From positions 310,001-374,000 of the forward strand of contig NZ_QEYO01000002.1 in the NCBI RefSeq assembly GCF_023718305.1: 64,000 nucleotides of DNA. The letters run 5' to 3'. Positions within the stretch are counted from its first letter, which is position 1. Each line of letters begins with the position of its first letter. The notes below the pieces were generated by a model. The model saw only the letters and a program-made list of their open reading frames with translations. It made no database searches and was not told where the DNA came from. The stretch comes from Gramella sp. AN32. GTDB lineage: Bacteria; Bacteroidota; Bacteroidia; Flavobacteriales; Flavobacteriaceae. The position numbers and the translations under genes are program-made. This document shows, piece by piece, positions 31,774-36,739 of the stretch.

Positions 31774-32241
31774 ATGGGTATCAAGAGTTTTATGGGAAAG
31801 CGGGCAGCATCAAAAAAGTCATTTCAAGAACCCATTTTGGTGAAAGATTATATGACTTCTAAACTTGTGACCTTCAGGGAGAAAGATCATATTATGGATG
31901 TGATGGAAAAACTGGTGAAGAACGGGATTTCCGGTGGATGTGTGGTGAATGACAAACATGAACTTGTCGGAATTATTTCTGAAGGTGATTGTATGAAGCA
32001 GGTTTCAGATAGCCGTTATTACAACATGCCCATGAGTGATTCTTTTGTGGAAAACCGAATGAACCGCAATGTAGAAACCATCGATGGGAATATGAATGTC
32101 TTGGATGCAGCGAAGATCTTTATTGAAAAAAAGTTCCGAAGGTTTCCGATTGTTGAGAATGGGCGGTTAATTGGGCAAATCAGTCAGCGTGATGTGTTAA
32201 GGGCCGCACTAAAATTAAAGGGTCAAAACTGGCAATATTAG
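31774..32241 (+). CDS. CBS-domain pair protein
   Basis: 155 residues with two CBS motifs (VKDYMTSKLVTFREKDHIMDVMEK and MNRNVETIDGNMNVLDAAKIF region), forming one Bateman module. Such modules bind adenine nucleotides and regulate partner proteins. The partner here is unknown. The following ATP-grasp gene starts five bases later and is probably co-transcribed. Confidence 0.85.
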   Translation: MGIKSFMGKRAASKKSFQEPILVKDYMTSKLVTFREKDHIMDVMEKLVKNGISGGCVVNDKHELVGIISEGDCMKQVSDSRYYNMPMSDSFVENRMNRNVETIDGNMNVLDAAKIFIEKKFRRFPIVENGRLIGQISQRDVLRAALKLKGQNWQY

Positions 32242-32246
32242 GAGTT

Positions 32247-33374
32247 GTGCTTAAGCGGAGCAAAACGAAAAAATTGCCAGGAAAGAAAAATATTGCAATT
32301 TTATTTCAAGCACAGAAACCCCCGATCCAAGATGGAATTCAAAAACCAATGAAACCAGGTGGATATTCTGATAGCGGAGCGGATATTGCTTTTTCTTTGA
32401 AAAATATCAACCTATCCATAATCACTCCGGTTAAAAATCCTAATGTAAAAAATGACTATGATTGGGTTTTTCCAGATACGGAAAATGGTATCCAATCGGC
32501 ATTAGATAAAGGGGCAACTATATTTTGGTTAAATACCGTTTTATATAAAAATCATCCAATAGAAACCTTTTTTGATGGAAAAATAGAAATAGTTGGTCAA
32601 CGTCCAAAAGATGTAGATTTATTCGATGATAAATGGAGGACAAATCAATTATTAAAAGAACAAAATTTACCCATTCCCAGAGCAAAGGTTTTTTCAAAAA
32701 AGAACTTAAAGAATAATAAATTTGATTTTCCTTTTCCAATAGTAACAAAACCTATTAGAGGTCGAGGCAGTCAAGGTGTATATGTTGCCCAAAATCAAAA
32801 AGAATTATGTCAACTCATAAACGACTTAATCGATTCAAATAAATATGGCAAGGAAGTCTATATAGAAGAATATTTGTCCGGTCAGGAAATTACAATAACC
32901 GTGATGCCTCCGGGAAAATATATTTTTACAAACAAGGAAAAAAGAATTCATTCTTATTGGAGTTTGCCGGCTATAAAAAGATTTAATCACCATAATGGAA
33001 TTGCTCCATATAATGGAACTGTTGCAGTAATTGAGAATAGTTCGATTTTAAATGATGATGAATTACAACAAGATGAAATCAAAATAGTATCAAAACATTG
33101 TGAAAATGCAGCAAAAATCATAAAAGCAAAAGCACCGATTAGGATAGATTGCAGGGCAAATGACAAAGGGGACTACTTTATTTTTGATTTAAATATGAAA
33201 CCTAATATGACGGGATCTTCAAGACCACATCGAAAAGATCAAGATAGTTTAACTTCCTTAGCCGCAAGAAAAATTGGTTGGAATTACGAACACTTATTGA
33301 TAAATATATTAGAACAAAAATGGATTACGCCAGCTGCCAACAAAGATGGTTTTCAGCAAATAGCAGGTATTTGA
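32247..33374 (+). CDS. ATP-grasp family ligase, D-Ala-D-Ala-ligase-like
   Basis: 375 residues from a GTG. AGGAG at 32240-32244 is an unusually clear purine stretch for this genome but is very close to the start. The glycine-rich lid KPIRGRGSQGVYVA, EVYIEEYLSGQEITITV and the Mg-binding RIDCRANDKGDYFIFDLNMKPN show an ATP-grasp fold. The last has D-N in place of the E-x-N of true Ddl, so it is unlikely to be the peptidoglycan enzyme. It may join a carboxylate to an amine in a small-molecule or peptide pathway; substrate unknown. AT-rich codon use and the 3' repeat element suggest transfer. Confidence 0.75.
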   Translation: MLKRSKTKKLPGKKNIAILFQAQKPPIQDGIQKPMKPGGYSDSGADIAFSLKNINLSIITPVKNPNVKNDYDWVFPDTENGIQSALDKGATIFWLNTVLYKNHPIETFFDGKIEIVGQRPKDVDLFDDKWRTNQLLKEQNLPIPRAKVFSKKNLKNNKFDFPFPIVTKPIRGRGSQGVYVAQNQKELCQLINDLIDSNKYGKEVYIEEYLSGQEITITVMPPGKYIFTNKEKRIHSYWSLPAIKRFNHHNGIAPYNGTVAVIENSSILNDDELQQDEIKIVSKHCENAAKIIKAKAPIRIDCRANDKGDYFIFDLNMKPNMTGSSRPHRKDQDSLTSLAARKIGWNYEHLLINILEQKWITPAANKDGFQQIAGI

Positions 33375-33390
33375 ACAAAAAGTAATATTT

Positions 33391-33475
33391 TAAGACACCA
33401 AGTAACAAAACAACTTGGCCGACACAATCCCGATAGCTTTCGGGAGTGTTCTTACACGCCTTGCGATAACCAAGA
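33391..33475 (+). repeat. 3' cassette-like element, copy 1
   Basis: It begins TAAGACACCAAGTAACAAAA, then GGCCGACA, then the hairpin TCCCGA-TAGCTT-TCGGGA extended by ACAC/GTGT, and ends near TTGCGATAACC. CCAAGT/ACTTGG also forms a small hairpin. It is the downstream neighbour of the ATP-grasp gene. The first 37 bases match copy 2 (35636-35715, minus strand). Confidence 0.45.
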
Positions 33476-33480
33476 CAGAA

Positions 33481-33798
33481 TCAATCCACTATAAAGACTT
33501 TGGCTTTTGTACCACATTCCAAGGTGGCTTCGACCAAATTATAATCATCCCCCTCATAATCAGTAGCTATTTCCATTTCGTCATCGCTTATGTCGTAAAC
33601 ATAACCGAAAACCTTGTCAGTGTCATTTTCAGAAATACGAATTGCCGGATAAATACTTCCCGTCTCGTTTCTGGGTATGGTAATTTTCCCTAAATGATAT
33701 CCTTTAAGAATGGCCGGTTTGCCCTTGAGAATTTTTCCGAAGAGTTTCTGTTGAAGTTTTTCGTCCTGCAGGGTCCCGTATGCAAATAACTTTGGCAT
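33481..33798 (-). CDS. Gamma-glutamylcyclotransferase-like (AIG2/GGACT) protein
   Basis: 105 residues with the N-terminal FAYGTLQDEKLQQKLFG signature of the BtrG/GGCT fold, a central GYHLGKI and VFGYVYDISDDEME. The last segment holds the acidic residues usual for the family. Members act on gamma-glutamyl peptides by cyclisation to oxoproline. The specific substrate is unknown. It lies directly after the cassette-like element on the opposite strand. Confidence 0.85.
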   Translation of the reverse strand: MPKLFAYGTLQDEKLQQKLFGKILKGKPAILKGYHLGKITIPRNETGSIYPAIRISENDTDKVFGYVYDISDDEMEIATDYEGDDYNLVEATLECGTKAKVFIVD

Positions 33799-33818
33799 TT
33801 CTTAATTTATAGTTATTA

Positions 33819-34235
33819 TTATTGGCTTTTCATTTCGGCCTGTCTCATAGACATTGAATCAATAGTTCCAAACAGTTCTTTAAGATTGAGGATTTGATTT
33901 TTCTTCAATTTCACTTCACCATCCAGGCCAATCAGCAACACCTGAAAATCCTGTCTTTCATTTAATTCAGAATAAATTGTAGAACTTTGGATTTCACCTT
34001 TTTCTGGTAAAATTTCCTGTTGAAATCCTGGAGTCGCCAGGATGATCTTTAAGTTACGATCTTTTAAACCTTTTATATCTTTTGCTAAAATCGATCTTTG
34101 ATCTTTTACATTTGAATTAGCTGCATTTTCTGCTATGATAATTAACAGCCTGTTTTCCCATCTCTCCTTGGAAATATTTTGCGCATCCATCATTTGAAAG
34201 CTAAATAGCGTTAAAAGTAAGATACCTAATTTCAT
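33819..34235 (-). CDS. DUF4174 domain protein, secreted
   Basis: 138 residues with a signal peptide (LLTLFSFQMMDAQN). WENRLLIIIAENAANSNVKDQ, FQVLLIGLDGEVKLKK and the C-terminal IDSMSMRQAEMKSQ are the hallmarks of DUF4174, a thioredoxin-like fold without active-site cysteines. Function unknown. 20 bases separate it from the cyclotransferase gene. Confidence 0.85.
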   Translation of the reverse strand: MKLGILLLTLFSFQMMDAQNISKERWENRLLIIIAENAANSNVKDQRSILAKDIKGLKDRNLKIILATPGFQQEILPEKGEIQSSTIYSELNERQDFQVLLIGLDGEVKLKKNQILNLKELFGTIDSMSMRQAEMKSQ

Positions 34236-34281
34236 ATTGGGAATTTAAACAAGTTTTCCCATTAGGCCTCTCAAAAAAACG

Positions 34282-34629
34282 CTAATTTCTTCTAACTAAA
34301 GCATAAATATCATTTTCGAGTTTCAAGTATCCCTGATCGTAGACAAAGAAATACTGTTTGCCATTTTTGGTGATGTAAATACTTGTAACAAACTCAAAAT
34401 TCAGGCCTTTGGAAAGCAGTTTAGATTTAGGAACGGTCGTCTTGTCGCCGGGATTTAGCTCCTGAAGAATTCTGTAATTGCGGCGCAGCGCGTTATTTGT
34501 ATTCCTGATAAGATTTGTAGCATCTTTATTTGCCTTATTATGGAAGGAATTCCGGCAGTAATCGCTACAGAACTTTTTATCTGTCCTGCCTTTTATTTTT
34601 TCGCCACATTCAGAACACAATTTTTCCAT
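34282..34629 (-). CDS. Zinc-ribbon protein, DUF2116-like N-terminus
   Basis: 115 residues. CSECGEKIKGRTDKKFCSDYC near 4-24 gives CxxCG...CxxxC, a treble-clef/zinc-ribbon resembling DUF2116 and MYM-type motifs. RRNYRILQELNPGDKTTV and the Gly/Tyr-rich C-terminus follow. Conserved, uncharacterised protein of Bacteroidota by my recollection; nucleic-acid or protein binding is only inferred. Confidence 0.7.
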   Translation of the reverse strand: MEKLCSECGEKIKGRTDKKFCSDYCRNSFHNKANKDATNLIRNTNNALRRNYRILQELNPGDKTTVPKSKLLSKGLNFEFVTSIYITKNGKQYFFVYDQGYLKLENDIYALVRRN

Positions 34630-34733
34630 GATTAAATATAATCAAAAATGGATTTATCCCTGTTTCAGCTTTATAAGTTTAGATGAATTTGTTGTGAAAA
34701 ATTATAGTCCCATTAAATATGCTGAACAACAAT

Positions 34734-35450
34734 TTAATGCGGTTCTACTTTATAAAATTTAGTATATATTTCTTTCTTCTGGGAATCGAGTTCGCACCGC
34801 GAATTATAAAAGAAGATTTTACTTACCGGGATGATATTTTTCAACTTAAAAATTTCCCTTTCTATAGGTTCATCCAGATATTCTTTGAACCTTAAATCTG
34901 AAATTCCGTTACCCATATTCTTTTCTTTTTTCCATTCTGCATAGGCTGTAGGATGAGTAAGTAAGGGCATATGATTTTCAGTTCCTTTTTTCTGTCTATA
35001 CCAGCTGCGAACCAGGTTTAAATTCTTCTCGATCCCGGGTGATTTATGTTTAAAAACATAAAATTCTCCAGGATATGATTTTAGAAGTGTATCCTTAAAA
35101 TGATGATAGGCATATTCCTTAGTCCTGAATTTAAAATAATTCTTTGCGCTACTCAGATTTTTGCAGAACATTTCAAAACGATCTTTTTCATAAATATCTT
35201 TAGCCTGAATTTTATAAAAACCCATAATTTTATCGTGGTGTAAAAATCTTATTTCGATAGAATCATGGTTTACAATACGTAAATCGGCAAAATAGCTGTT
35301 ATCTTTAGAATTGGTTAGGAAAAACCTTTCCTCCATTTCTTTTCCTTCAGCATATTGATATTCATAATGTAGTAAATGGTCAAAAGTATAGCTTACATTT
35401 TTTGTACTGGTATTGAAACTTAGCAAGAAAGCTATTAAAAAATATGGCAA
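34734..35450 (-). CDS. Hypothetical protein, possibly exported
   Basis: 238 residues. The N-terminus (YFLIAFLLSFNTSTKNVSY) is a short hydrophobic leader that might be a signal peptide. The rest is rich in Lys, Tyr and Phe, with a Cys (SRCELD) near the end and no recognised motif. It is followed downstream by the zinc-ribbon gene after about 105 bases. AT-rich like the flanking accessory genes. Confidence 0.6.
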   Translation of the reverse strand: MPYFLIAFLLSFNTSTKNVSYTFDHLLHYEYQYAEGKEMEERFFLTNSKDNSYFADLRIVNHDSIEIRFLHHDKIMGFYKIQAKDIYEKDRFEMFCKNLSSAKNYFKFRTKEYAYHHFKDTLLKSYPGEFYVFKHKSPGIEKNLNLVRSWYRQKKGTENHMPLLTHPTAYAEWKKEKNMGNGISDLRFKEYLDEPIEREIFKLKNIIPVSKIFFYNSRCELDSQKKEIYTKFYKVEPH

Positions 35451-35635
35451 AGACTTCGGTTTTGTCCAAATTTACAAATTTCCTGCCTTTCATTTTATGT
35501 TAGGATGAAACAATATGGTTAGCAATTAAAGACACATCATTTGCTTTTTTTTTATAGGCGGCTCCTTATTAATTACCACCAGATTTTGATTGAAGTCTTA
35601 AATCCCATTTAGGATAGAAATCTTTATAGAGTGCA

Positions 35636-35715
35636 CTTTCGATCTATAACGACAAGTGGCGCGGGGTATGGACGAGAACTTGTCGGCTTTGTTGGTTTTT
35701 ACTTGGTTTCTAAAA
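35636..35715 (-). repeat. 3' cassette-like element, copy 2
   Basis: Read on the minus strand it begins TTTTAGAAACCAAGTAAAAA, continues CAACAAAGCCGACA and folds as CGACAAGT, 20-base loop, ACTTGTCG. The start aligns with copy 1 (33391) as ACCAAGTAA..AA..AAC..GCCGACA. It lies about 60 bases past the stop of the Mrr gene, the same relative position and orientation as copy 1 has to the ATP-grasp gene. The remainder of the 323-base gap 35451-35773 holds no gene that I can see. Confidence 0.45.
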
Positions 35716-35773
35716 TAGCACTTTTCACCAGATTGCCCGTTATTTGCGATGAACTTTGTTACCTTGCGTTTTC

Positions 35774-36643
35774 TTAGATACTCTTGAAAAAATCTGGTTT
35801 TATTTTTACATCTTCAACCATTTCTATTGAAACGCCTAAGCCCAATTCTTTAAGTTTTTCTGCAAAGTCATTTCCATCTATTAGGTCAATTGGTATTGCA
35901 CCATCTCTAGTTGCTTCTTTCTTCGCTTCTCTTGTAAAACTTCCTGTGGTTAGAATTAGTCCTTTATCAGCTCTTCCACTCATTGCACCTCTAAAATCAC
36001 GTATTACGGAAGGAGACACAGAACCTTTATATCTTTTTGCCTGGAAAACAACGTGAAATGATAATACGCTTCCAATTTTGTAAATACCTTTTCCATCGAT
36101 TCCGCCATCATTAGTGCGTCCTGTTACTTCAACATTTACAAATCCTAACTCCCTTAAAAGTCTTTGACATAATCTTTCAAATTGATCAGGACTTATTTTT
36201 CTTATAGTTTGAATTAATTTATCCTGCCAACTAAATTCCTCAATTTCGTTAGTTGTATTTTCTAATTCAGGTTCATTATTTTCTTTATTTTTTGTTGTTT
36301 TCTGGCTGCGTTCTTCTCTATCAATTTTTACAACTGCTTTTTTTACTTTTTCTTGGTCAACTTTGTCTATTTTTTGTCCTTTGTCCGTTAATGCCCAAAC
36401 TCCTCTTGAAGAGTTTTCCACTAAACCATATCTTTTTAAATAATTTCTGGCCCAAGCTAATCTATAAGCGAGTTTTGTAGTGCTTTCTCTATGAATTTCG
36501 TTGATAGCATCCTCATTTAAATTCAAAATTTGAATAACTTCTTCCTCAATTTCACTTATAGAACCAGAACCTCCTAATTCTTTCAAGGCTTTTAATACAG
36601 GATTAAATAAGTCGTCGTATTTATATTTAAAGTTATGATCCAT
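35774..36643 (-). CDS. Mrr-type restriction endonuclease
   Basis: 289 residues. An N-terminal winged-helix Mrr_N domain covers about 10-92, a charged linker 100-135, and the Mrr catalytic PD-(D/E)xK domain 145-270. Catalytic elements: E156 (QFERLCQ), D183 in NDGGIDGKG and QAK at 201-203 (VVFQAKRYKG). Mrr enzymes cut modified DNA (type IV restriction) without a partner methyltransferase, and none is nearby. The target modification is unknown. Adjacent cassette-like repeat and AT bias suggest it was acquired. Confidence 0.92.
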   Translation of the reverse strand: MDHNFKYKYDDLFNPVLKALKELGGSGSISEIEEEVIQILNLNEDAINEIHRESTTKLAYRLAWARNYLKRYGLVENSSRGVWALTDKGQKIDKVDQEKVKKAVVKIDREERSQKTTKNKENNEPELENTTNEIEEFSWQDKLIQTIRKISPDQFERLCQRLLRELGFVNVEVTGRTNDGGIDGKGIYKIGSVLSFHVVFQAKRYKGSVSPSVIRDFRGAMSGRADKGLILTTGSFTREAKKEATRDGAIPIDLIDGNDFAEKLKELGLGVSIEMVEDVKIKPDFFKSI

Positions 36644-36739
36644 AAATTTTGTTTAAAAATGCAAGATAACTCCTAATATACTAACAAATATTTTATTGCT
36701 GCTCCTTGATATAGTTCCCCAAAATAAAGCGATCAGTCA

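Follow-up and report, generated by a model that had tools for sequence, protein, structure and literature searches.

Attachment sites of attC type in Gramella sp. AN32 point to a genus-wide integron-like system whose linked recombinase lacks the IntI-specific domain

Integrons are the described systems closest to the one reported here. The loops of known attC sites are free to vary in sequence, Treponema integrons encode a true IntI co-directionally with the array, and XerA-type recombinases are tied to one dif site. The necessity of the IntI-specific domain is reportedly credited to Messier and Roy (2001). This additional domain around patch III is described as a defining characteristic of IntI and as necessary for integron recombination (PMC9668308), intI genes have been selected by the additional domain or patch (PMC2426708), and the standard finder requires a tyrosine recombinase together with an IntI-specific profile (PMC9668308). 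Clusters of attC sites without integrases are termed CALIN (PMC9024848). Bacteroidota are named among the phyla with integrons (PMC8618304, PMC9668308, PMC2426708), Salinibacter ruber being given as a complete Bacteroidetes integron in the IntegronFinder 2.0 paper (PMC9024848). Here we analysed a 64,000-nt stretch of Gramella sp. AN32 (the window; contig NZ_QEYO01000002.1, positions 310,001–374,000), in which an original prediction, made from the letters alone, had noticed two related elements, one behind an ATP-grasp gene and one behind an Mrr gene, and had likened them to attC-like cassette ends. Our analysis indicates that the two elements are very probably the attC-like sites of single cassettes, placed at attI-like chromosomal spots by a genus-wide integron-like system. 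Coordinates without a label refer to the window, and G, C and L numbers are our labels for genomes, contigs and loci.

The two elements share a sequence block, which reads ACCAAGTAACAAAACAACTTGGCCGACA beside the ATP-grasp gene (33397–33424, plus strand), where the earlier reader first noticed it, and ACCAAGTAAAAACCAACAAAGCCGACA beside the Mrr gene (inside 35636–35715, minus strand). Local alignment of the two surroundings scored 45 compared to a best score of 32 among 2000 single-base shuffles, confirming the shared block behind both genes. With up to three mismatches allowed, the block pattern matched the genome 12 times, the window's own match counted, and a reversed control pattern matched twice. 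Eight of the 11 matches outside the window had the whole element around them, in arrays or close to contig ends, and the other three, with three mismatches each, look like chance. The full element measures ~140 nt and is thus larger than originally drawn: the block is the spacer between two inverted arms, CAAC..GGTTcATCGCAAATAnCGGG at the upstream start and the partner CCCGCAACTTGCGATAACC..GTT at the end. The elements do stand behind genes as proposed, except that the ATP-grasp element has its left end inside the open reading frame (ORF), the last codons of which (..QIAGI*) form the left arm. The two hairpins that had been named are not the conserved fold: TCCCGA..TCGGGA falls within an insertion that is specific to the ATP-grasp element, and in CGACAAGT..ACTTGTCG the spacer pairs with the right arm. 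The fold with covariation is the pairing of the left arm with the right arm, in which the left arm carries a bulged (extrahelical) base, giving the attC-type layout R''-L''-spacer-L'-R'. The spacer block, ACCAAGTAAC..GCCGACAAGTCCGCGTCC, also kept its sequence where the arms of two sites were unrelated (copy C27d; L010:1203-1343), and other genera showed other conserved spacers, such as CGGCCGACGGCC in Rufibacter; a role of the conserved spacer beyond that of a passive loop is possible.

A covariance model was built from 17 copies of the element, including the two in the window, and scored these two training copies at 84.5 bits (E 3.8e-16; site E1, 33333–33488, plus strand) and 106.1 bits (E 7.9e-21; site E2, 35630–35770, minus strand). 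With 150 candidates scored per genome (in AN32, 150 of 2078), the model detected at least 55 sites at E≤0.01 in AN32 and at least 17 sites in each of 19 congeners; the further copies anticipated for this genome thus exist, in arrays behind accessory genes. The arms covaried over 150 sites of G019, with 88.5% of cells paired and nine pairs changed on both sides, compared to at most 44.1% paired in a control with one side slid, both in an alignment fitted to the structure. Covariance modelling with this hand-set structure therefore agreed with the proposal that the fold is conserved and the sequence variable.

Each of the two elements closes a solitary cassette. The ATP-grasp cassette (32245–33478, plus strand) extends from the TT of its head to the G of the R' end and contains a D-Ala-D-Ala-ligase-like ATP-grasp ORF with a GTG start (32247–33374, plus strand) and the tail (R'') arm (33326–33341, plus strand). 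The Mrr cassette (35640–36669, minus strand) contains an Mrr restriction endonuclease-like ORF (35774–36643, minus strand; Mrr_cat 106 bits, Mrr_N 78.5 bits) and a tail arm (35758–35773, minus strand), the complement of which, GTTACCTTGCGTTTTC, matches 10 of the 12 scored positions of the head GTTATCTTGCATTTTT and has an A/G mismatch at position 11. Both cassettes are found directly behind ATATTAGGA|GTT, at an attI-like target ATATTAGGAG (32235–32244, plus strand, the ATP-grasp cassette joining after its G; 36670–36679, minus strand). The targets follow the motif ATATWASGAG, present in exactly two copies over the two strands of the window together, each at a cassette head, and at five further cassette heads, attI included, in the other AN32 loci examined; most of the solitary cassettes that we read stood behind a copy of this attI-like motif.

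The syntenic places in congeners bore out the expectation that both genes vary between genomes. The CBS gene next to the ATP-grasp cassette was present in 23 of 23 congeners, and within 1.5 kb beyond it neither the ATP-grasp gene nor the site was found in any of them. Beyond CBS, three congeners (L167, L172 and L175) carried a 39–41% identical homologue of the gene located past the cassette in AN32, and the two gene matches ended 9–17 bases apart. Likewise, none of the 22 congeners having the ssb locus carried Mrr within 1.5 kb of it. In a set of 149 family genomes, relatives of the ATP-grasp protein (E≤1e-50) occurred in AN32 and just five others. A homologue in another genus lay inside a cassette (L329), the 61%-identical relative standing between a head and a tail of its own with sites around it, and no such head/tail pair was found at four other relatives.

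In an integron, the head of a cassette completes the site at its own tail when the cassette is circular. To test for this, heads and tails were compared for 414 cassettes of AN32 and nine congeners, using 439 of 447 model-aligned sites and skipping neighbours more than 3500 bp apart (the 51 sites of G001 were unaligned, and G019 was represented by 150 of its 174 matches). The head, G|TTRnnnnnAA.., is complementary to the tail of the same cassette over ~16 bp except at position 11. Tails paired with their own head at five or more of six positions in 341 of the 414 cassettes and with the next head in 33, and the match at positions 5–10 was 0.80 for the own head, 0.36 for the next and 0.34 for shuffled heads (maximum 0.37 of 500). 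Position 11 was A in 407 of 414 heads and G in the complement of 392 of 414 tails (head A versus tail C), which makes a G.T wobble on the bottom strand and an A.C mismatch on the top strand. When the circular form was folded with DNA parameters, the bottom strand was the more stable one in 402 of 414 cassettes, with a median difference of 4.0 kcal/mol. As a rule, a cassette consisted of a single short gene with one site. The cassettes had a median length of 900 bp; 376 contained a forward ORF of at least 60 codons, the forward ORF was longer than the reverse one in 366, and the 376 cassette proteins fell into 291 families at the threshold used, 239 of them with a single member. Judged from these sequences, exchange would take place between G and TT with the cassette head completing its own attC, as expected of an integron.

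Cassettes also appeared to have moved between genomes. We found 137 pairs of cassettes in which the shared DNA covered most of the shorter member, 49 between genomes and 88 within a genome. Among the former, 33 were at least 90% identical (best, 99.6%), and none of the 49 had a related neighbour on either side; single shared cassettes with unrelated neighbours are the pattern left by cassette-by-cassette exchange. Four of the 88 pairs within genomes were identical, lying 14–42 kb apart. These data bear on the possibility that the elements are dispersed non-mobile repeats or 3'-end RNA elements, such as terminators or repetitive extragenic palindrome (REP)-like sequences, that merely trail genes. 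Their position behind genes and their hairpins would suit that explanation, but it is contradicted by the pairing of each head with its own tail across a whole gene, by the exchange of single cassettes between species, by the target motif and by the congener loci without the cassettes. An Rfam scan of the window gave no match at gathering score, so no known RNA element supports a 3'-end RNA function, and we assign this explanation a negligible probability.

Arrays of the same sites were found next to a recombinase gene. In the array regions fetched from ten congeners we counted 172, 63, 53, 51, 43, 32, 27, 22, 19 and 13 sites, the largest array spanning 187 kb, and all 495 sites were on the strand of the recombinase gene at the array start. 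The count covers the fetched regions and excludes sites elsewhere, for example in G002 near 3.74 and 4.19 Mb; sites far from the main arrays of congeners were seen at G002:C1 near 3742798 and 4188739, and at G012:C5:222185. A conserved attI, GATATAAC(GA or AC)|GTT, was present 3' of the recombinase gene in 10 of 10 genomes (AN32 and nine congeners), ending 30–39 bp past the matched coding region, and eight of these genomes had their first detected cassette head exactly at attI. The C6 array of AN32 begins behind GATATAACGA too, without an integrase. As a side observation on the draft assembly, three AN32 array contigs (L009, L010 and L011) shared an end sequence, ..TTCACCATATGAAGAACTCC.. (about 50 bp seen), just past a site that lies 132–134 bp from the contig end, so that a repeated cassette or insertion appears to break the assembly there; contigs C8 and C53 shared a different end sequence.

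The gene at the array start encodes a tyrosine recombinase of ~385 residues, located in AN32 on contig C20 (L044:1501-2655). AN32 has a single copy of it, as do 22 of 23 congeners; the one that departs from this is a 67% complete assembly. An integrase, as the attC-like reading would lead one to expect, is therefore present beside the arrays; what the original prediction could not see is that by its domains the enzyme is not an IntI and that the arrays lie on the side opposite to that of a normal integron. Against the IntI model TIGR02249 the recombinase scored 205.6 bits in two pieces (cut-off, 265), and its best NCBIfam match was XerA (NF040815) with 220.8 bits (cut-off, 220). The array-linked enzymes left IntI-model positions ~180–190 to 238 unmatched every time, and in the AN32 enzyme ~43 residues corresponding to the IntI-specific domain were missing relative to VchIntIA (2A3V). 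In an alignment of 84 recombinases, the IntI-domain region comprised 32–35 residues in 65 rows (the array-linked family and most relatives), 38–41 in 14 (Xer proteins and one Aquiflexum), 56 in one Pseudoalteromonas row and 75–76 in four IntI. The predicted model of the Zunongwangia homologue (L221; mean predicted local distance difference test score (pLDDT) 83, predicted template modelling score (pTM) 0.58) had XerA as its nearest PDB match in a Foldseek search, followed by IntI. Residues 1–90 of the AN32 integrase formed an extra N-terminal domain with no Pfam match, folded as beta-beta-alpha-beta-beta-alpha in the L221 model, and many matches in the wider family began only past this domain.

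A tree of these proteins, which omits five family members and rows shorter than 255 residues, placed the five IntI rows in a separate clade (support 100/100) and the 16 array-linked rows on one side of a poorly supported branch (52/90). Its backbone left 25 of 76 inner branches open and does not decide whether the array-linked integrases are ancestral to IntI. The simplest alternative would be an ordinary chromosomal integron whose canonical IntI had been overlooked, as the attC-like sites, attI, the G|TT exchange point and the cassette arrays are all integron features and Bacteroidota are a listed integron phylum (PMC8618304, PMC9668308). However, no protein of AN32 or of 22 of 22 relatives exceeded the 265-bit IntI cut-off, and the arrays lie 3' of the recombinase gene, in contrast to IntI loci of the same phylum, which have repeats on the 5' side (10, 2, 5, 9 and 0 repeats at five control loci, compared to 0, 0, 0, 2 and 0 on the 3' side). 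We rejected a canonical IntI on the cut-off, the missing ~43-residue domain and the separate clade, and consider this alternative very unlikely indeed.

Homologues of the recombinase were found in Zunongwangia, Mesonia, Lutibacter, Algibacter, Flavobacterium, Winogradskyella, Seonamhaeicola, Algoriphagus, Rufibacter and others. Their flanks were scanned for a cassette signature blind to the site sequence (6 of 7 head positions matched, A/G at position 11 and the next three positions matched) at 34 loci, namely 20 of 80 homologue loci, with a long 3' side, and 14 of 15 non-IntI regions; the scan excluded L229, L231, L254 and L256, which the first repeat test described below covered, and L263–L297. 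It yielded 94 pairs 3' of the recombinase gene, in 27 of the 34 loci, compared to one pair in shuffled sequence and one on the 5' side, where 14 of the 34 loci had a flank of just 1.3–2.4 kb. Neither side of five canonical IntI loci from the same phylum showed the signature, and in 16 canonical cassettes from two of these loci the arms mostly paired to position 11–12 and not beyond, with matches at position 11 of 0.75 and 0.88 and no such mismatch mark. Plasmid-borne copies with the signature were also seen in Rufibacter tibetensis (4 pairs), Chryseobacterium sp. SNU WT5 (3 pairs) and Pontibacter kalidii (1 pair), and a plasmid copy of Chryseobacterium oryzae had none; Rufibacter tibetensis plasmid 1 (L324) and the Pontibacter kalidii plasmid (L325) were predicted to be mobilizable (the Chryseobacterium plasmid is L322). 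Among 395 sampled Bacteroidota genomes, the integrase (E≤1e-60) occurred in 116, 54 of them of the class of AN32 and AN32 included, and an IntI above the cut-off occurred in 105, one of them of this class; several genomes of other classes had the two enzyme types at different locations. None of the phage records matched 80% of the integrase at a single place, and no array search was made there.

This distribution also bears on the possibility that the housekeeping XerC/XerD pair or another tyrosine recombinase of the genome moves the sites in trans, the adjacent integrase being incidental. AN32 has 21 PF00589 matches, the enzyme beside the arrays resembles XerA-type recombinases most, and several arrays of the draft genome are on other contigs, all of which would fit action in trans. 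It is opposed by the adjacency of integrase, attI and array in AN32 and in all nine congeners read, and by a signature that adjoins homologues down to ~35% identity, across orders and plasmids included. We therefore regard movement by an unlinked recombinase as very unlikely.

Several observations weigh against the proposed integron-like system. The structure of the site was set by hand from the arms, because these bulge at two alternative positions and seem misaligned in the MAFFT alignment, and pair counts are biased towards it; RNAalifold predicted zero pairs from the plain MAFFT alignment of the 17 sites. One ATATWASGAG copy (L009) lies away from any cassette head, and a dispersed AN32 cassette on contig C8 has no attI-like motif at its head. 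The head and tail of the ATP-grasp cassette agree at 5 of 12 scored positions (the tail matches the head at positions 1–4, 12–14 and 16), with the A/G mismatch at position 11 present; this cassette is thus old, composite or degraded, its pairing being decayed or composite. In G005 and G008 the first site past attI was missed by the model, and a head-like GTT follows the flank. The AN32 draft assembly does not join the integrase to the arrays on C6, C25, C27 and C30. Outside the genus, seven of the 34 relatives showed no signature on the 3' side, and at least two repeated 3' stretches were found in 8 of 23 testable loci and, in a second set, in 10 of 14; among the eight, Oceanirhabdus L258 lacked the signature and had repeats 5' as well as 3', and two repeated stretches were present 5' at seven other loci. 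Finally, action of the recombinase on these sites is predicted from adjacency and co-occurrence. As a separate observation, L313 (G304:C1:2119001-2139000) carried 18 repeated stretches 3' of the homologue, most of them ~180–300 bp long, and no signature pair; these are possibly another type of site.

Taken together, the genome sequences document the anatomy, linkage, distribution and between-species exchange of the system, and the linked recombinase is predicted to act on the sites, and on their bottom strand. In the mechanism we propose, the recombinase would cut between G and TT, and cassettes would be excised as circles in which the closed site restores the full stem, to be inserted at attI, at the site of another cassette or at attI-like places such as those in the window. 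The substrate would probably be the folded bottom strand, because the position-11 mismatch forms a G.T wobble on that strand and an A.C clash on the top one. In contrast to IntI, this enzyme would act without the IntI-specific additional domain. The system has the structural features of an integron but lacks the enzymatic one, the IntI domain; given this integron-like working and an enzyme that falls below the IntI threshold, we regard it as a new integron variant, apparently missed by integron finders. More broadly, we lean towards the view that integron recombination exists in two enzyme lineages, with a XerA-like integrase devoid of the IntI domain running chromosomal and plasmid integrons across Bacteroidota in a mirror-image layout, and with the wobble/mismatch mark in the outer arms maybe replacing part of the work of the IntI domain, namely strand choice and holding the folded site; this lineage would be either ancestral or of independent origin.

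We found no description of such a system in the literature searched, which did not extend to preprints and most subscription papers. The nearest hint that we saw in print is that the insertion is essential but not fully conserved in an integron-like subgroup (PMC8138268). As the standard finder needs an IntI profile, the Flavobacteriaceae arrays, with up to 172 sites, would not register as integrons, and some of their sites may have been counted as CALIN. If our reading is true, integron recombination can do without a domain regarded as required for it, mobile cassettes form a reservoir that extends across a large phylum, and the system offers a natural comparison for asking how a recombinase of double-stranded DNA came to act on folded single strands.

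Among known systems, the arrays described here most resemble sedentary chromosomal integrons (superintegrons), with which they share tandem cassettes in one orientation, an attI beside the integrase, array lengths reaching 187 kb, folded sites in which the arms are inverted and the tail side has a bulged base, the G|TT exchange point, pairing of each head with its own tail and a bottom-strand bias. Unlike in superintegrons, the integrase has no IntI-specific domain, and attI and the array lie at its 3' end and are co-directional with it, whereas theirs lie at the 5' end and are divergent; the co-directional layout recalls that of Treponema integrons. The arms also differ from those of canonical cassettes in that they pair over ~16 bp and are almost always mismatched at position 11. 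The enzyme itself is close to XerA-type and archaeal Xer recombinases (NF040815; PDB 5HXY and 4A8E), its best NCBIfam and Foldseek matches, but has an extra N-terminal domain of ~90 residues and is tied to cassette arrays. Compared to Xer dif modules (pdif), which use short dif-like XerC/XerD sites, the sites here are ~140 nt long and of another form, and no dif search was made. The two cassettes of the window, which lie outside any array, resemble CALIN or solitary attC sites, from which they differ in having a linked candidate integrase in the same genome and in that most insertion points share the attI-like motif.

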